Assembly (NCBI GenBank): GCA_019115995.1
Contig: DXCL01000010.1
Coordinates: 1 to 56,104 of the forward strand
Length of the DNA stretch: 56,104 nt
Reading direction: 5' to 3'
Origin: Candidatus Borkfalkia avistercoris
GTDB taxonomy: Bacteria > Bacillota > Clostridia > Christensenellales > Borkfalkiaceae
Shown: positions 11,723 through 48,100 of the stretch, piece by piece
Layout: each line of letters starts with the position of its first letter
How positions within the stretch are numbered: the stretch's first letter is position 1
Notes under the pieces: model-generated
Databases searched by the model: none
What the model was told of the DNA's origin: nothing
The model's input: the letters and a program-made list of their open reading frames with translations, nothing else
Program-made: the position numbers and the translations under genes

Positions 11723-13459
11723 TTATGCCACGATGCCGAACAAACCGATGACCACGCCGCAGAAAATGAGCAAAGACAAAACGTCGGTGATCGTCGTGAT
11801 GAAGGGGTTTGCAAACACGGCGGGGTCTACCTTGATCGCCTTGGCGAAGATAGGCACGCAGCAGCCGACGATCTTTGCGACGATGACCGCGAACGCGATG
11901 GCAACGGAAACGGCGGCGGAATAGAGCAGTGTGTAATTATATCCGAAGATCAGGCGGTCGATCAGTTGCAGCTTCAAAAAACATACGGCTCCGACGGATA
12001 CGGAAACGAGCAGCGCCACGCGCAGCTCCTTCCAGATGACCCGCAGTATATCGCGCGGGCGGATCTCGTCGAGCGCCATGCCGCGTATTACGGTAACGGA
12101 AGCCTGGCTGCCGGCGTTCCCGCCCGTGCCCATGATCATGGGCACGCACGCCACGAATACGGGCAGCAGCAGCGCTTCATAGGTGTTCAAGATGAGCCCC
12201 GTAAAAGTTGCGCCGATCATGAGGATCAGCAGCCACGGAATGCGGTGCAGGTAAATTCTGAACACGTTGGTTTCCAGATACGGCTTGTCGGAAGGGGTAA
12301 CGGAGTTCATGTACGAAATATCTTCCGTCGCCTCTTCGGTGATGACGTCGAGCGCGTCGTCTACCGTAACGATGCCGACCAGCCGTTTTTCCTGATCGAC
12401 CACGGGCACGGAAAGAAGGTCGTATTTGGAGAGCAGGTTCGCCACTTCCTCTTTGTCTTGCTGGGTGTCTACGTAGATGAAGTTGTCCTCCATGAACGAC
12501 TCGACTTTTTCTTCATAGCCGTGCAGGAGAAGATCTTTTACCGTTACGATGCCCAAAAGCTTTTTTTGGTCGTCCGTCACGTAGCAGGTGTAAATGGTCT
12601 CCTTGTCGATCGCCTCTTTTCTGATCTTGTCGAAGCATTCGCGAACGGTCATGTGCGCGCGCAGGGAAATGCATTCCGTCGTCATGATGCTGCCCGCGCT
12701 GTCTTTGGGGTATTTGAGGATCTCGTTGATCTCTTTTCTCGTTTCGCTGTCCGCTTGCAGCAAGATGCGCTTTACTACGTTTGCGGGCATTTCCTCCACG
12801 AGGTCGACCGTATCGTCTACGAACAGTTCGTCGAGCATCAGTTTGAGCTCTTTATCCGAAAAGGAGCGGATCAGCAGCTCCTGCTGCGTGCTGTTCATTT
12901 CTACGAACGTTTCTGCGGCAAGCTCTTTGGGGAGGAGCCTGAACACGATGGGCAGATCCGTTTCGCTCAGCTCGGAAAAGATCTCTGCAAGGTCTGCCGG
13001 TTCCAGCTCGGCAAGGAGCGGTTTGAGCTGAGAAAATTTCCGCTCTTCCAAAAAGTCTACGATCTCGACGATCTTGTCGTTGCGGTTTTCGGGCGTCGCT
13101 TTCAGCAGGACTTCGTGCACGACGTCCGTAGGCATGCTTTCGAGCAGTTCTTCTACGTCGTCGTCGATGATCTCGTCGGTAACTTCCTGCAATTTTACGT
13201 CGCTGAAATCTTTGAGGACGCGCTTTTGCGTCTCCCGATTCAAAAGGACGAACACGTCCGCCGCGACTTCTTTATCGAGGCAGCCGAAGAATTTTGGCAT
13301 CTTTTCCCCGTCGAGGGCTTCGAGTATATGCGCGAGCTCTTCGGACGTGCGCTCGTCTATGAGGGATTCCAGATCTTCCGTCCTGTTTTCGTCCAAAAGC
13401 TGAGAAATTTTTTCGAGCATGTCTTCGTCTTGCTCTTTTTTCATCTCTTCTTCGCTCAC
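11723..13459 (-). CDS. mgtE: MgtE-family magnesium transporter
   Basis: Encodes 578 residues, longer than the usual 450. After an acidic N-terminal MgtE_N superhelical region (LAELEPADLAEIFSELSETD, with related repeats) come two CBS domains (CYVTDDQKKLLGIVTVKDLL, VDQEKRLVGIVTVDDALDVI) and five transmembrane helices with the pore motif GTGGNAGSQAS. MgtE forms a dimeric Mg2+ channel closed by Mg2+ bound between the N and CBS domains. The extra length is at the N-terminus. I take the GTG at 13459 as start because AGGAGG lies 9 bp upstream, rather than ATG 13444. No M-box is visible in its short leader. Confidence 0.92.
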   Translation of the reverse strand: MSEEEMKKEQDEDMLEKISQLLDENRTEDLESLIDERTSEELAHILEALDGEKMPKFFGCLDKEVAADVFVLLNRETQKRVLKDFSDVKLQEVTDEIIDDDVEELLESMPTDVVHEVLLKATPENRNDKIVEIVDFLEERKFSQLKPLLAELEPADLAEIFSELSETDLPIVFRLLPKELAAETFVEMNSTQQELLIRSFSDKELKLMLDELFVDDTVDLVEEMPANVVKRILLQADSETRKEINEILKYPKDSAGSIMTTECISLRAHMTVRECFDKIRKEAIDKETIYTCYVTDDQKKLLGIVTVKDLLLHGYEEKVESFMEDNFIYVDTQQDKEEVANLLSKYDLLSVPVVDQEKRLVGIVTVDDALDVITEEATEDISYMNSVTPSDKPYLETNVFRIYLHRIPWLLILMIGATFTGLILNTYEALLLPVFVACVPMIMGTGGNAGSQASVTVIRGMALDEIRPRDILRVIWKELRVALLVSVSVGAVCFLKLQLIDRLIFGYNYTLLYSAAVSVAIAFAVIVAKIVGCCVPIFAKAIKVDPAVFANPFITTITDVLSLLIFCGVVIGLFGIVA

Positions 13460-41628: not shown

Positions 41629-44337
41629 TCACAGCAGTTCTCCGTACCTTTTTACGTACAGCGCCTTCACCGCAGTTGCGAGCGCGATATACGCGACAAC
41701 GGTCACGGCGAGCAGTGCAAAAAAGGAGGGGGAAGGCGCGTAAAACCCGAGCAGGCTGCCGAGCGGCGTATAGGGGATCGCCGTGATCAGGGCGGTGCCC
41801 GCCGCGGTGAGAAGGGTCACGGAGAGCGAAGCGCGGCTCTGTATAAAGGGCACGCGGGGCGTTCTGATCAGGTGTATGATGAGCGCCTGCGTCCACATCG
41901 ACTCGATAAACCAGCCCGCGCGGAAGATCGCGGCAAATTTTTCCTGCGCTTCGGCGCCGAGGGCGGCGTAACTTCCGCCGCACGCCATGGGGCAGACCAG
42001 AAAGTACAGCGAGGCAAAGGTCGTTATGTCGAATATCGAACTGACGGGGCCGAAGTACAGCATGAACTTGCCGACGGACTTTGCCTCCCATTTGCGCGGT
42101 TTTCTGAGGAAATCTTCGTCTACGTTGTCCCAGGGGATCGCCGTGCAGGATACGTCGTAAATGAGGTTGAGCAGCACGAGCTGTATCGCCGTCATGGGAA
42201 GGAAGGGAAGAAATGCGCTCGCCGCCAGAACGGAGAACATATTGCCGAAGTTTGAAGACGCCGTCATCTTTACATATTTGATGGTGTTGGCATACGTTTT
42301 TCTCCCTTCTGCGATGCCGTGTTTCAGAACGGTGAGATCCTTTTCCAGCAGAATGATGTCTGCCGACTCCTTGGCGATGTCTACCGCGGTATCCACGGAA
42401 ATGCCGACGTCAGCCTGCTTCATCGCGGCGGCGTCGTTGATGCCGTCGCCCATGTATCCCACGGCGTGCCCGCGTTCGCGCAGAACGCGCACCACGCGCG
42501 CCTTCTGCTCGGGGGAGAGCTTCGCGAAAACGGTGATCTCTTCCGCCCGTTGCGCGAGCGCCGCGTCGTCGTATGCGTCTACGTCTGCGCCGAGCAGCAC
42601 GCTTTCGGAATCCAGCCCGACCTGTTTGCAAATGCTCGCGGCGACCTTTTCGTTGTCGCCCGTCAGAATTTTTACGCGCACGCCGTACGCAAAGAGGTCG
42701 GAGATCGCCTTTGCCGCGGTCGGTTTGGGCGGGTCGAGAAAAGCGAGGTATCCGATGAGCACCATATCGCTCTCGTCCGCAACCGTGAAGGCGCCGGGAA
42801 CGCCCGATGCGTTTTTCTGTGCGACGGCAATGACGCGCATGCCCTCCGCGTTGAGCGCGTCCGCCTTGGCGAGCACAAAGTTTTTCAGCTCCTCGGTCAG
42901 CGGCAGGATATTCCCTCCATATTCTGCGAAAGAACAGCATTCGAGCATCTCTTCGACGGCGCCCTTTGCGATCAGCTGGCATTTTCCGCTTTCGTCGGAA
43001 ATGATGACGCTCATTCTGCGGCGCTCGAAGTCGAAGGGGATCTCGTCGACCTTGGTGTACACGCCGTCATAGCGGCTTCCGAATATTTTTGCGAATTTTT
43101 CGATGACGGCGATGTCGATGAGATTTTTCAGCCCCGTCTGGTAATAGCTGTTGAGCCAGGCATGGCGGAGCACCCTGTCGTCTTCATCGCCGTGCACGTT
43201 CATGTGTTTTTCCAGAACGACCTTGTCTTGCGTGAGCGTGCCCGTCTTGTCGGTGCATAGTATGTCGATCGCGCCGAGATCCTGTATCGAATTGAGCTTT
43301 TTTACGATCACTTTCTTTTTGCTCATCGCAACGGATCCCTTCGCGAGCGCGGCGGTTACGATCATGGGCAGCATTTCGGGCGTGAGCCCCACGGCTACGG
43401 ATACCGCAAACAGCAGCGCCTGCAACCAGTCTCCCTTCGTAAAGCCGTTGATGAGCAGAACGACGGGCACCATCACGAGCATAAAGCGGATCAGCAGGCC
43501 GGAAACCTTGCCGATGCCCGTCTGAAAAGCGGTCTTGGGCGGCTTGCCGTCCAGCGTTTTTGCGATCCTCCCGAACAGAGTGCCGCTTCCTACCGCCACG
43601 ACAATGCCTCTGCCGCTCCCGCTGACGACATTACTTCCCATAAACGCCAGGTTTTCGCATTCGGGAACGGGCGTGCTTTCATCGGCAGTTGCGCCCGTTT
43701 TTTCCACGGGGGCGCTTTCTCCCGTCAGGGAAGCCTGGCTCACGAAGAGGTCTTTGCAGGAGACGATGCGCATATCCGCGGGGATCATGTCTCCCGCGGA
43801 GAGATGGATCACATCGCCTACAACGATCTCTTCGGGCGGGATCTCCGCCCGTGCGCCGTCTCTTTCCGCGGTCGCGGTCATTGTGACCATTTTGGAGAGC
43901 CTTTCCGCGGCGTTGTCGGAACGGGTGTCCTGCACGAAGCGGAGCACGCCGGATATAACGAGCATCGCCCCGATGATGATGACCGTCGTCGGGTTCTTTT
44001 CGCCTGCGGGGGCGAAAACGATGTCCGTAAAAACGGAAACGAGCGCCAGCACGAACAGGATAGCGGAAAAGGAATTGAAAAACGAATCGACGAGCCGCAT
44101 CGCAAGCGGCCTCTTCTTTTTCGCGCGGATCACGTTTGCGCCGTATTTTTCTCTCCTTTCTTCCGCTTCCGCGCTCCTGATGCCGTGTTCGCCGCAGCGC
44201 AGCGCCTCATAGAGGCGCTCGGGCGAGTTTACGGCGGCAAATTTCATTCTGTCTGCCGCGCCGCCGTTGGCGGCGCTCTGTACGGCTCTCCCGTACATCT
44301 TTTGGAAAAATGTTTTGTTCTTGCGTTCTCTTTTCAT
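41629..44337 (-). CDS. mgtA: magnesium-translocating P-type ATPase
   Basis: The 902-residue type IIIB P-ATPase has an actuator-domain TGES ([16 protein letters not shown]), the phosphorylated aspartate in CTDKTGTLT (D363), nucleotide-binding KGAVEEML, the hinge [29 protein letters not shown], and the MgtA/MgtB-typical helix-4 motif [12 protein letters not shown]. It imports Mg2+ at the cost of ATP. The basic N-terminus ([17 protein letters not shown]) is typical. AAGGAGG precedes ATG 44337. Expression must be controlled by the M-box leader and by the small ORFs and terminators between it and the promoter at 44955. Confidence 0.97.
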
Positions 44338-44382
44338 TGTTTCGTACCTCCTTGTTTGAATTTTCGGGAAGTACGTGCATGC

Positions 44383-44481
44383 TCACCGGAAGCGCGCGGG
44401 CGCAGACCGCGCATGCGGGCGGGCCGCGCCGCTCCGTGGCGGAGCTGCCGTACTTCGGTTGTTGATGCTGCCTGCGTCCAT
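44383..44481 (-). CDS. leader ORF 2 upstream of mgtA (32 codons, Pro/Arg-containing)
   Basis: On the minus strand ATG 44481 is preceded at 7 bp by AAGGAGGTG, the best ribosome binding site in this region. It opens a 32-codon frame beginning MDAGSINNRSTAAPP, with four prolines and many Arg and Ala codons, ending at TGA 44383, 45 bp before mgtA. The product is hydrophilic and basic. It resembles in position and proline content the mgtL-type leader peptides of enterobacteria, whose translation couples Mg2+ and proline levels to mgtA transcription. Whether it regulates or is a coupled small protein is open. Confidence 0.6.
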   Translation of the reverse strand: MDAGSINNRSTAAPPRSGAARPHARSAPARFR

Positions 44482-44529
44482 CGTGTTCACCTCCTTTATC
44501 GGCGCATTGTTTTCAAAAGGGCATAAAAA

Positions 44530-44552
44530 AGGCCGCTCTCTTCGGGCGGCAA
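44530..44552 (-). terminator. third hairpin in the mgtA leader
   Basis: On the minus strand GCCGC pairs with GCGGC around CCGAAGAGA, followed by CTTTTTT (plus coordinates 44524-44550). It directly follows the second terminator. Confidence 0.6.
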
Positions 44553-44584
44553 AAAAATACCGCCGCTTCGGAAAAAAGCGGCGG
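44553..44584 (-). terminator. second terminator in the mgtA leader
   Basis: On the minus strand CCGCCGCTT (44584-44576) pairs with AAGCGGCGG (44568-44560), followed by TATTTTTTTG. It is a strong intrinsic terminator placed after leader ORF 1 and before leader ORF 2. Confidence 0.85.
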
Positions 44585-44613
44585 CGTTTCGCGTTCACGA
44601 AAAATGGGGCCGT

Positions 44614-44634
44614 GCAGACCGATCAAAGGTCTGC
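44614..44634 (-). promoter_or_regulatory. hairpin whose loop carries the stop codon of leader ORF 1
   Basis: GCAGACC (minus strand, 44634-44628) pairs with GGTCTGC (44620-44614). The 7-nt loop (44627-44621) contains the TGA stop of leader ORF 1. A ribosome at the stop codon would melt this hairpin. Confidence 0.6.
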
Positions 44635-44703
44635 CGTGCCGAAAAACATGCGCTTTCGCTTTGTTCCGAATATTGCGTTTGTGTAACTGTAACTGCCTTC
44701 CAT
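44623..44703 (-). CDS. leader ORF 1 upstream of mgtA (26 codons)
   Basis: Immediately after the M-box terminator, ATG 44703 (AAGGTG 5 bp upstream) begins a 26-codon frame reading MEGSYSYTNAIFGTKRKRMF and a few more residues, to TGA 44623. The peptide is aromatic and basic and matches no family I know. Its position, ribosome binding site, stop codon in a hairpin loop and the terminator that follows argue that it is translated and takes part in attenuation. Confidence 0.5.
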   Translation of the reverse strand: MEGSYSYTNAIFGTKRKRMFFGTADL

Positions 44704-44715
44704 AATGCACCTTTG

Positions 44716-44752
44716 TAAAAAAATAAAACCGCGCATCGGAAAGTGATGCGCG
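44716..44752 (-). terminator. M-box expression-platform terminator
   Basis: On the minus strand CCGCGCATC (44752-44744) pairs with GATGCGCGG (44737-44729), followed by TTTTATTTTTTT. It would end transcription when the M-box is bound to Mg2+. Confidence 0.9.
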
Positions 44753-44775
44753 GCGCAAAACAGATTTCTGCTCTT

Positions 44776-44917
44776 CGTCCGAGTTTTAGCATTGCAGGGC
44801 AATGAAACTGTGTTATGATGCACCTTGGATCGATGCAGCCTGTTCAAACCGACGCATGAAGTCTCCTTCAAGTTGCGGCAACAGCCCGTATCCTCTGCAA
44901 TAGCCTCACCTACCGAA
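44776..44917 (-). ncRNA. M-box (ykoK) magnesium riboswitch
   Basis: The minus-strand leader contains the conserved M-box core: GGTAGGTGAGGCT at the 5' side, then GATACGGGCTGTTGCCGCAA, the GGCTGCATCGATCCAAGG segment and a 3' side with TGCAATGCTAAAACTC, in the order expected for the Rfam ykoK family. Binding several Mg2+ ions compacts the RNA and favours the downstream terminator (44752-44716). It controls mgtA, a Mg2+ importer, which confirms the assignment. The transcription start is predicted near 44920. Confidence 0.92.
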
Positions 44918-44926
44918 TACGCCTAC

Positions 44927-44955
44927 ATTATAACCGCAAAAAATGAATGTGTCAA
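44927..44955 (-). promoter_or_regulatory. sigma-A promoter of the M-box/mgtA transcript
   Basis: TTGACA (44955-44950) and TATAAT (44932-44927) on the minus strand, both consensus, are spaced 17 bp. Confidence 0.9.
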
Positions 44956-45066
44956 GCATGTCGGCAAAAATTTTTTACACTTTTTTGCGGTACGTCTGCG
45001 CTTTTTCGCTTTTTCGGCGGCGCGGCGTTTACATAAAACCGCGCGTTTATCGTCAAAATGATATTG

Positions 45067-45095
45067 TTGACAAAAATCGTCCGAGATGTTATCAT
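45067..45095 (+). promoter_or_regulatory. sigma-A promoter of the M60-like lipoprotein gene
   Basis: TTGACA (45067-45072), 17 bp and TATCAT (45090-45095) leave a leader of about 75 nt. Confidence 0.75.
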
Positions 45096-45179
45096 ATTGC
45101 ATCGAGCGACGCATGTGCGCCGCATGGGGGGGAATGATCGCAGAGCCGGAAAACAAACAAAGAAAGGAGAGAATGAGTT

Positions 45180-48100
45180 TTGAAAAGATATGTTTTGCGC
45201 GCGCTTTCCGTAGCGTTGGCGTTCCTTTTGGCTTTGGGCTGTGTATTTGCGGGCTGTACAAAGGAGCCTGCCGCGCCCGAAACGCCGCAAGTTCCCGTAC
45301 AGCCGTCGCCCGACGATCCCGAAACGCCGCAGGAGCCTTCCGTAACGCCTCCGGAGGGGCAGCTGCCCGAGGAGGACGCGTATCCCGACGAACTTTTCAC
45401 GGGCAAGCTTGCAAATACTTCCGCGGTGGGAATGCGCGCGGAGTACCTCGGAACGGTCAGGAGGAGCCTGCCCGAAGTTTCCGACGGCGGTTTGGACAGA
45501 TATCCAGAGTACGGTGTAACGCTGCAAGCCGAAAAAGAGGAAAAGCAGAAGATCATATCAGAAAACGAAATGCTGAACGCGTCGTCTTCCTCTTACGATT
45601 CGATGGACGCGGAGGGGAATCTCTATCTGAACGGGCATGCGACGGGTAAAAAATTATACAAACACACGGCGTCTTTCGGCATGTACGAGGGAGACGTGGA
45701 CGACAGCGAGCCCGCTCTCGTAAAGCGGATCACCTTTCGCCCGCGCACCCGCGGCAACTACGTCACGGGGCTGTATGCGCCGGCGGGAGAGGTCGTAAAG
45801 ATCGAGATGAGCGAAAAGTCTCTTGCCGCCACGGGCGGACTCGTTATTGTCATCGGGCAGGAGCTTGTAAACGGGAGCTCGAACAACATCTGGCTCGAAC
45901 GCGACTTTAACCGCATGCCTGTCATCGTGAACAAAATGACGGTCTCCTCGCAGACGGGATACGTTGGTTCCTATCTGGGCGGGCCGATCTATATAAGGCC
46001 CGTAAGGACGGGCGCGCAGTTCACGGTGACCATCTCCGGCGCGGTCGGCTATTCCCACTATATCCACGGATATACGACGAGGGAAGAGTTTGATTGCAAT
46101 AAAGATTCTTCCGCCCCGTATTTCGATCTCGAAGTGTGGGACGACGGCGTGCGGCATTCCGGGCCGAAAAGCCGCGCCGCACGCTTCGATTACGACGATC
46201 TTTCTTCCGCCGCCGTGCTCTGGGACAAGATCGCGCTCGTTTCCAACAGGGTGCCGTCGGGTTCGCCCGGGGATACGGGCATCGTGTTTTTATACGATCC
46301 GTTCGTTGCGGCGGGCAGTATGGTCGCCTTTGTGGGGCGGTATACCGTCAATTGCCCGCTCTATTGCATGGAAGCCGCGCTCGACGCGTCTTCCGCCGTC
46401 GACGATCCTTCCGACGCTTTTTGGGGCTGTATCCACGAATTCAATCATCATTTTCAAAGATTCGGCTTCGCCCCCGGAGACGAGGTAACGAACAACGCGG
46501 TGAGCTTGGTCGAATACAGCCTGTTCACGCGCGTATCGGCAAAGCGTTCTCTCGGCAGCGCTTCCGAGGGAACGTATGCCGTGGGGTGGAACAGATATAC
46601 GAATCCGAGCTGGTCGCTGCGGCAGACGCTTGCAAATACGGGCGCCAATTCGGGGCTCGATTCGTATGCGAATCTCCTGCATGCATTCGGGCAAGACGCC
46701 TTTATCCGCGCTTGCGCGGCGGGGGAAGGCGCCGGCGGAGCGGACGCATGGTATAAGGCGGTCTGCGACGCCACCGGATACGACATGACCTATTATTTTG
46801 AAGACGTATTGCATCAGACGGTATCGCAAAGCGTTTTGGAGGAACAGGCGAAGAAAAATGCTCCCATGTTCGTGCCCGTCGCCTGTATTTATCAGACGGG
46901 GCGCGGCTATACCCGAAACGACAGGCTGTATTTCAGCCGTACGGCACAGCCGTATGTGATAGAGAAGGGAAAGGAATTTGTGCTCGATCTGAACGAAACG
47001 ATCGTGCTGCCCTCCGGATTCACATATCAGATAGAGAGCGTTACGCAGCCCGTATACGGCGCGCTTTCGCAGAGGGAAGAGGGCGTTTATGCGTATACGC
47101 CGAGCGCCGCGCATAAGGGCTCGGGCACGATCTACGTAACGCTGTCTCTGCAAAAGGCGGACGGCTCGTTCGAAGCGGAAAACGTAACGCTCGTCATCGA
47201 ACTGTATCAGGGGCAGTATCGGCCGAACGTGCTGGAACGCACCGTTTACACCTATTCCGCGGACAAAATGTACGAAACGGCGGCGGAGGCGTATGAGAGC
47301 GGTTATGAAGGTTACGAAAGCGTAAGGGAAGAAGACAACGAAAACCGCGTGCAGAACGGGAACGCGGAGATCTGGGAGCCGAGCCCGGGAACAAACGCCG
47401 TCATGGAGGTCCGCGGCAAGTTTTTGATAGAGAGTACGGGCAAATACCGCGTCGCGCTGCGCGGCAGGCGCTCGGCGGCGCTGTATATTTCCGAAGACGG
47501 CGAAAACTACCGCAAGGCGGCGGCGCTTTATAACGATACCAACGGATCCGGATTCGACCTTTCGGAAGAGGGCCGTTACAGCGACTTTGATTTTTCCAAA
47601 GGGCAGTGGATCTATTTCAAGGCAGTGCTGCTCGTCGATTACGAAAGGGCGTTTATCGGCGTGGGGATGGGCAGGTTCAACGGAGAAAACGTTTCGGTCG
47701 GCTATCTGAACGCTTATCGGAGCTCCTATATGCCCGAACCGTTCGAAACGGAGTACTTCTATACGCGAAGCTACGCGTACGACGGGGAATCATACGGCGT
47801 ATCGCAGACGCTTACAGGGGCGAAATACAGCCCGTGGGACAGCTCGTATCCGATCGAAAACCTTTTCGACGAAGACAGATCCAATTATATCCATTCTGAC
47901 AGGACGTCGATTTCGGAGGACAATCCGTTCGAGGTAGAGGCGGAATTGGGCGCAAAAGTCTGGGCAAACCGCTTTACGATCTACGGCACGGCATACAGAC
48001 CGTACCAGCCAAAAACGTTCAGGCTGTACGGCGGAACTTCCGAGCAGGATATGCGGCTGCTCGCCGACGTCCGGAATGCGGAACGCACGGGCGACAACGT

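Follow-up and report, generated by a model that had tools for sequence, protein, structure and literature searches.

The mgtA gene of Candidatus Borkfalkia avistercoris, which encodes a Mg2+ P-type ATPase, is preceded by a leader in which an M-box riboswitch, small ORFs and terminator-like hairpins follow one another, and the question is whether these elements form a single system in which Mg2+ is checked more than once. The window, i.e., the whole stretch of DNA that was analysed, comprises 56,104 nucleotides of contig DXCL01000010.1. A first-pass annotation, made from the letters alone, had placed on the minus strand, in this order, a promoter, an M-box, a terminator, ORF1, a second terminator, a third hairpin, ORF2 and mgtA; this order was borne out, and the coordinates given for the leader elements were right. 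The leader is best read as a real and conserved case of stacked Mg2+ control.

Anatomy of the mgtA leader

The elements of the leader, in order of transcription, are as follows.

44927..44955, minus: sigma-70 promoter TTGACA-17-TATAAT, 12/12 consensus matches
44764..44924, minus: M-box (Mg2+) riboswitch aptamer, RF00380; 83.7 bits, E 9e-18, gathering score 44
44717..44754, minus: terminator 1, presumed expression platform of the M-box; 10-pair stem and U tract, scan match 44754-44728
44623..44703, minus: ORF1, 26 codons, MEGSYSYTNAIFGTKRKRMFFGTADL; Shine-Dalgarno (SD) sequence AAAGGUG
44657..44670, minus: candidate antiterminator within ORF1, UUCGGAACAAAGCG; pairs with terminator 2 at 44580-44567
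44614..44634, minus: hairpin with the ORF1 stop codon in its loop, from predicted folds
44551..44585, minus: terminator 2; scan match 44585-44559, U tract; at the same place in relatives L041, L151 and L152
44524..44550, minus: third hairpin with U tract, readable in the sequence and absent from the terminator scan list
44487..44497, minus: SD of ORF2, AAAGGAGGUGA, read from the sequence
44383..44481, minus: ORF2, 32 codons with four prolines, MDAGSINNRSTAAPPRSGAARPHARSAPARFR; homologous small ORF in relatives
44443..44457, minus: element b, codons 9-13 of ORF2, CGAAGUACGGCAGCU; partner of the anti-SD b'
44367..44384, minus: element b' (anti-SD), GAGCAUGCACGUACUUCC, with core CGUACUUCC at 44375-44367; pairs with b or with the mgtA SD
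44343..44351, minus: SD region of mgtA, GGAGGUACG (element c); pairs with b'
41629..44337, minus: mgtA, Mg2+ P-type ATPase of 902 amino acids; TIGR01524, 1116.6 bits, cut-off 610.75

Terminator-like sites on both strands of 44000-45300 number 9 against 2.7 expected, and terminators 1 and 2 have the most pairs among them. Boxes of the TTGACA/TATAAT type also precede the M-box in same-genus leaders, as judged by eye.

A model with three gates

We hold it moderately probable that the leader works as a series of Mg2+ gates, namely the M-box, ORF1 as an attenuator of transcription and ORF2 as an attenuator of translation; translation of the two tiny leader genes probably helps to switch the Mg2+ pump on at low Mg2+. 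At the first gate, the M-box would fold with Mg2+ and terminator 1 would form. At the second, ORF1, whose codons 11-18 are able to pair with terminator 2, would act as a ribosome-controlled transcription attenuator. At the third, ORF2 would be a ribosome-controlled translation attenuator, in which b' either pairs with b or covers the mgtA SD: at high Mg2+ ribosomes would read through b, so that b' is freed, the SD is hidden and mgtA is off, and at low Mg2+ ribosomes would abort early, on the acidic first codons of ORF2, leaving b free to form the b:b' helix, upon which the SD would open and mgtA would be on. We infer the translation of both ORFs, the Mg2+-dependent abortion or response of the ribosome, and the whole action of the second gate.

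The M-box and the first terminator

Assignment to the riboswitch class is based on a covariance-model score above gathering, a terminator that follows the aptamer, and the Mg2+ transporter gene mgtA downstream. The match spans the full RF00380 model (1-169) and is the sole M-box found in the assembled genome, which is 88.6% complete. A terminator-like hairpin is also seen by eye after the M-box in relatives.

For the genus set, 40 genomes were searched; MgtA scored above the family cut-off in 23, and one contig (L062) stops short of the mgtA leader, which leaves 22 leaders, the window included. Rfam detected an M-box in 19 of these leaders, including two that are truncated at contig ends and score below the gathering threshold. 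The M-box of L042 was seen by eye alone; the Rfam scan gave no M-box match for genome G053 (L051, also scanned as L035), where the leader is cut by a contig end; and in L041 an M-box was looked for and none was found. Outside the genus, the M-box is present in L151 and L152, which belong to another genus of the same family.

ORF2 and translation of mgtA

An SD-led homologue of ORF2 stands at the corresponding place in all 22 same-genus mgtA leaders that reach that far, its position relative to mgtA varying among relatives. ORF2 is conserved and therefore not a chance reading frame. The same-genus peptides start with MDEGxGSRS or a variant of it, MDAGSINNRST in the window, MDAYGKPCRST in L041 and MDIGGSRST in L042 being examples; L151 and L152, whose MgtA proteins are 68% and 67% identical, have MNAGNDSYRST. 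Codon 2 of the 24 family ORF2s specifies Asp in 21 cases and Asn in three (L058, L151, L152), the fourth residue is Gly in 20, for which each of the four GGN codons is used, and codon 8 is CGA in 19. A second acidic residue is present at positions 3-5 in 19 of the 22 same-genus ORF2s; the window has one acidic residue near the start of ORF2 (MDAG), and likewise of ORF1 (MEGS). Judging from these sequences, the shared trait of ORF2 is an acidic codon 2, usually a Gly next, and then a stretch apparently constrained at the RNA level. Two observations count against the gate model: in L159, of the same family and with an MgtA 60% identical, mgtA appears by eye to lack this leader, and the codon 2 of L151 and L152 is Asn.

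Three pairings were evaluated in each leader, namely a:a' (start of the ORF with its end), b:b' (codons 4 onward with a stretch upstream of mgtA) and b':c (the same stretch with the mgtA SD), and a pairing was taken to beat shuffled sequences at z below -1.645. In the window, the b:b' duplex (-19.2 kcal/mol, shuffle p 0.01) is part of the minimum-energy fold, and the b':c duplex (-14.5 kcal/mol) was equalled by 0/200 shuffles. The two are mutually exclusive; this exclusion, as well as the anatomy and the conservation of the leader, comes directly out of the computations. For a:a', a strong helix in most relatives, the window gives no significant pairing (p 0.36). Shuffles were beaten by a:a' in 17, by b:b' in 21 and by b':c in 14 of 24 family leaders. 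Partners swapped between leaders do less well, the mean fraction of swaps as good as the native pair being 0.28 for a:a', 0.29 for b:b' and 0.37 for b':c, with 0.5 expected. The letters of b, b' and c differ in most relatives (e.g., GGCAGUCGAAG, CUUCGGCUACC, GGAGGUAG), and the pairing scheme is kept.

A ribosome was then mimicked in folding by holding 31 nt unpaired, for ORFs within 300 nt of the gene. With the ribosome on codons 1-3 of the window's ORF2, the mgtA SD is unpaired with probability 0.44, and on codons 6, 8, 10 and 12 with probability 0.00, a difference that 0/12 shuffled leaders attain. The corresponding values fall from 0.83-0.99 at early codons to 0.00-0.02 at later codons in L151, and from 0.39-0.49 to 0.00-0.01 in L152. 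The mean difference for the family is +0.09, against -0.06 in shuffles, and exceeds 0.1 in only 4/24 leaders; in many of them the mgtA SD is largely paired in every ribosome state, which counts against the gate model. Distant mgtA leaders give +0.06 against -0.04 in shuffles (5/21 above 0.1, one below -0.1), and mgtE leaders +0.07 against -0.05 (11/28 above 0.1, three below -0.1). From these counts, the effect of ribosome position is strong for the lineage of the window and a tendency elsewhere.

Outside the family, b:b' beats shuffles in 8/15 distant mgtA leaders and a:a' in 11/15; in mgtE leaders the counts are 3/14 and 13/15. As a general feature of mgtE leaders b:b' is not supported, and other helices seem, from the folds, to do the work there. 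Alternative pairings that link translation of the ORF to the transporter SD or to a terminator are found for ORF2 (b:b' and b':c) and are weaker for ORF1. The ORF2 tier appears to act on translation of mgtA and not on a terminator.

ORF1 and the second terminator

ORF1 and terminator 2 lie ahead of ORF2 in four genomes, i.e., the window, L041, L151 and L152. The ORF1 peptides start with MEGS, MDGS, MESH and MDSH, respectively, share the N-terminus M-[DE]-[GS]-[SH], and diverge after it. That ORF1 and terminator 2 are kept in L041 despite its having no M-box counts for the gate model; that an ORF1 SD is present in the window and L041, with no clear one in L151 and L152, counts against it. By eye, L041 and L152 have a hairpin comparable to the one that holds the ORF1 stop codon in the window. 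The third hairpin has no counterpart in L041, L151 or L152, and, being found in the window alone, is rejected as a conserved terminator. Of the first-pass expectation that the ORFs and the later terminators would recur in relatives, the part concerning both ORFs (ORF1 in four genomes only) and terminator 2 thus stands, and the part concerning the third hairpin does not.

The 5' arm of terminator 2 together with its loop, CGCUUUUUUCCGAA, is a potential pairing partner of codons 11-18 of ORF1, UUCGGAACAAAGCG (shuffle p 0.005). This pairing is found in the minimum-energy fold of 44725-44516, where the third hairpin is included, and is not favoured in a fold containing terminator 2 alone. In each of the four family members its first paired codon lies at 11-13; its p values in the relatives are 0.27 (L041), 0.08 (L151) and 0.36 (L152), the weakness in L041 and L152 counting against the gate model, and pairing of ORF1 with the 5' arm without the loop was negative in these tests. 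Wherever the ribosome is placed, the equilibrium probability of terminator 2 is 0.92-1.00. An equilibrium antiterminator switch in ORF1 is therefore rejected, as terminator 2 wins in every state, and any antitermination at the second gate must be kinetic, because at equilibrium the terminator forms regardless of the ribosome. Control of terminator 2 by ORF1 is taken as a possibility.

The segment AAGGTGCAT is repeated in the 3' part of the M-box and in the ribosome binding site of ORF1, and it had been suggested that the two copies compete for pairing. The repeat is there, but competition is not supported and was dropped: the segment is not shared with L041, L151 and L152, and the repeat looks coincidental because the relatives examined do not share it.

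Acidic-start leader ORFs in other bacteria

Acidic-start leader peptides before mgtA and mgtE resemble E. coli MgtL. A profile of MgtA was compared with 84,980 species genomes, and the best 80 of the matches listed were used. Among these, 57 loci have an ATG ORF with an SD in the 450-nt region upstream of mgtA; codon 2 of the best-SD ORF is Asp or Glu in 28 of the 57, and in 18/26 when the SD match is at least 6. SD-led ORFs elsewhere in the same loci, which served as control, have an acidic codon 2 in 63/1225 cases (9/142 at SD of at least 6). An order-level mgtA set is weaker, with 5/21 best-SD ORFs acidic. Peptides of this kind are METGSQCGP in Lacrimispora, MESQSINSP in Lactococcus and MDDDGGSSR in Treponema. 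Among proteobacterial mgtA leaders, ORFs with acidic starts were seen in L106, L128, L137, L139, L140 and L149, and examples are MDPASRWRR (Variovorax) and MDDDSSRWLC (Pseudochrobactrum).

The mgtE set, from class Clostridia, comprises 90 of the 103 places listed above the cut-off; the 13 left out include second copies per genome and the window's own mgtE, and L240, which lies directly after another mgtE gene, is retained. The control set consists of 70 of the places listed for Ca2+-ATPase genes, taken mostly in list order. In the 90 mgtE loci, the best-SD ORF is acidic at codon 2 in 34/64 cases, and in 29/37 at SD of at least 6. An acidic-start ORF with SD of at least 5 is found in 34/90 mgtE loci vs 2/70 Ca2+-ATPase loci and 0/90 reverse strands of the same mgtE leaders; Ca2+-ATPase leaders have few strong-SD ORFs, 0/4 being acidic at SD of at least 6. 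Typical mgtE leader peptides are MDSDPLPGK, MDYDPLPIL, MDAGSSSGT and MDADSSRLC.

Several mgtE leaders in the ranges L180-L207 and L242-L308 have ORFs such as MDSDPLP, MDSSPLP and MDYDPLP. In 6/8 folds viewed by eye, the start of the mgtE leader ORF pairs with its end in a long helix. An M-box is present in 5/14 long-flank mgtE loci; in two loci from the same order as the window (L001, L002), an M-box before mgtE is accompanied, by eye, by the ORFs MDDPSSRRRR (with a GTG start) and MDAGGSSCGT. The window itself contains an mgtE gene (11747-13459, minus strand, 433.5 bits to TIGR00400) that, by eye, has a promoter approximately 36 nt upstream of its GTG start and lacks a leader ORF, unlike many mgtE genes of class Clostridia. 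Pattern matches at L017, L032, L038 and L039, with no M-box and no MgtA, were set aside as chance; L039 adjoins a P-type ATPase 28-31% identical to MgtA.

Codon choice was analysed in 51 acidic-start ORFs outside the family, 30 before mgtE, taken by rule (SD match of at least 5), and 21 before mgtA, picked by hand. Near-duplicates L194, L197 and L273 were dropped from the counts of codon choice, residues 3-5, ribosome position and terminator pairing; they were kept in the shuffle and swap pairing tests and in the comparison of mgtE with Ca2+-ATPase, and, with others, in the spelling of codon 2. Ser is encoded by AGY in 61/68 cases at codons 5-10 vs 25/84 from codon 13 on (p 2e-14), and Arg by CGA in 16/27 vs 15/98 (p 1e-5). 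Such bias points to the RNA as the level of constraint, which would follow if this stretch resembled a Shine-Dalgarno sequence and captured the anti-SD. All four Asp and Glu codons (GAC, GAT, GAA, GAG) occur at codon 2, and Gly or Pro is found within residues 3-5 in 42/51 ORFs vs 259/916 controls; the varied spelling and these residues suggest that the peptide matters. Outside the family, a second acidic residue at positions 3-5 is not clearly enriched (17/51 vs 16/74 controls), which speaks against simple destabilisation of the ribosome by repeated charge.

The stacked layout, too, has parallels. In L071 (Lacrimispora celerecrescens), an M-box is followed by a terminator, the ORF MDDGHSISRNDGQD, another terminator, the ORF METGSQCGPDPDG and mgtA; the second terminator, with a long loop that exceeds the scan, was read by eye, and the first ORF pairs with its arm and loop (p 0.016). 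In L073 (Spirochaetales; 1560-1932), two acidic-start ORFs stand in tandem before mgtA, separated by a terminator; no M-box match was found there, and pairing of the first ORF with the terminator has p 0.095. By a loose count, leaders with two non-overlapping acidic-start ORFs are not commoner before Mg2+ transporter genes (5/78, 3/25 and 8/89) than before Ca2+-ATPase genes (3/70), so that the case for the stack rests on its details. Further acidic-start ORFs in L197 (-316) and L206 (-345) lie within M-box matches and were not counted as stacks. Pairing with a downstream terminator reached p of at most 0.05 in three of 20 acidic-start ORFs, the finder having missed L071, L151 and L186.

The bolder result is that leader ORFs with an acidic start are so widespread before Mg2+ transporter genes. 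Tentatively, and with less confidence than we place in the gates of the window, we propose that acidic-start leader peptides may be a general bacterial device for ribosome-based sensing of Mg2+, serving mgtA and mgtE in Clostridia, lactic acid bacteria, spirochaetes, proteobacteria and others. The RNA logic would be shared, codons 4-10 mimicking a Shine-Dalgarno sequence and trapping the anti-SD, and in some lineages a pair of these ORFs, the first coupled to a terminator and the second to the transporter SD, would be stacked behind an M-box.

Alternative explanations

The main rival to the gate model is that the small ORFs control mgtA through RNA structure and ribosome occupancy without sensing Mg2+, the signal being ribosome supply, amino acids or translation speed, and the GA after AUG being kept for initiation or pairing. 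Codon choice at positions 5-10 demonstrates a role for RNA pairing, each window ORF has a single acidic residue near its start, and Asn occupies position 2 in L058, L151 and L152, all of which would suit this explanation. The single residue also weighs against the gate model directly, as destabilisation in the form described needs acidic repeats, or Asp or Glu together with Pro; because acidic repeats are not clearly present, we have not filed ORF1 and ORF2 with the ribosome-destabilising class. A signal other than Mg2+ is nonetheless unlikely: acidic residues at codon 2 are spelled in all four ways, acidic starts are enriched before mgtE and not before Ca2+-ATPase genes, and Gly or Pro recurs within residues 3-5 far above controls. 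Still less likely is plain translational coupling, in which a ribosome ending ORF2 sits on b', opens the mgtA SD and so lets ORF2 translation turn mgtA on. The ORF2 stop codon (44385-44383) does touch b' (44384-44367), and with a ribosome at the stop codon the SD is unpaired with probability 0.53 in one of two calculations, the one in which ribosome positions are 1 nt off; the other, with the footprint one codon earlier, gives 0.03, the distance from the ORF2 stop to the mgtA SD is 31 nt, and relatives differ in where the ORF lies with respect to mgtA.

A strong M-box followed by a terminator might regulate mgtA alone, with the later ORFs and terminators as passengers of a long leader. We consider this very improbable, given that ORF2 is present in all 22 same-genus leaders reaching it, that both ORFs persist in L041, which is without an M-box, and that 27/32 acidic-start mgtE leaders (18/32 scanned over ~600 nt upstream) have no M-box match. 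The four prolines of ORF2 had invited comparison with the enterobacterial mgtL and mgtP leaders; however, no Pro is conserved in the 24 family small ORFs, most same-genus members reading MDEGxGSRS, so a proline sensor is unlikely, and ORF2 as a proline-dependent stalling peptide (AAPP) is scarcely credible. Returning to the chain of gates, the first-pass proposal that Mg2+ is checked twice, by the M-box and then through the small ORFs, survives as control in two tiers, with conserved ORFs and terminator 2, and loses its proline sensing and the conservation of its third hairpin.

Relation to known Mg2+-responsive leaders

The closest parallel for ORF2, and an experimental precedent for the gate model, is mgtQ-mgtB of Salmonella, where translation is described as controlled by alternative helices together with acidic residues encoded at codons 2 and 5 (PMC8092293). 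Both have a short ORF with an acidic codon 2 and a strong SD before a Mg2+ transporter gene, and in both alternative RNA helices hide or free the transporter SD at the translational level (PMC8092293). They differ in that mgtQ has 8 codons and lies inside an operon, unlike the 32-codon ORF2; that its ON helix 2:3 is formed without region 1, the ORF, whereas the ON helix of the window uses ORF2 codons; and that the part of the account drawn on here describes no M-box or intrinsic terminators (PMC8092293). Enterobacteria and Brucella are named by its authors, in the same part, as other holders of such leaders (PMC8092293). By this analogy, the leader of the window is one that would work like mgtQ as far as ORF2 is concerned and that contains a true M-box.

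The mgtL-mgtA leader of E. coli and Salmonella is not known to contain an M-box. It also has an acidic leader peptide before mgtA, and MgtL is reported to abort at EPDP at low Mg2+, switching mgtA on by way of Rho (PMC11282234); Rho-dependent termination and a start with two acidic residues and Pro, as presented in that part of the work, set it apart from the window ORFs (PMC11282234). Compared with M-boxes of the ykoK type (RF00380), the window has the same full-length match and intrinsic terminator after it, and has, beyond terminator 1, ORFs and another terminator in addition. The M-box of M. tuberculosis with the upstream ORF rv1805A is likewise followed by two such ORFs with anti-SD logic (PMC12810186); it differs in controlling the upstream ORF translationally, with Rho and, in the sections of that report used here, no canonical intrinsic terminators, and the rv1805A peptide is said there to be specific to mycobacteria (PMC12810186). 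The tandem mgtM/mgtP attenuators of the Salmonella mgtCBR leader similarly place two short ORFs in one leader of Mg2+ transport; their signals are ATP and proline-charged tRNA, and the portion of the paper relied on mentions no M-box (PMC3641672).

Among the matches listed in open-access titles and abstracts, none concerned such leaders before mgtE or before Gram-positive mgtA. Studies of the M-box and of the leader ORF of the mgtL/mgtQ type, two mechanisms of Mg2+ sensing, have so far dealt with different bacteria. In the window, an element of each kind is present in one transcript, and L041 retains the ORF tiers without the M-box. With acidic-start ORFs found before mgtA and mgtE beyond the enterobacteria, the idea of the ribosome as a general sensor of Mg2+ becomes testable with simple reporters.
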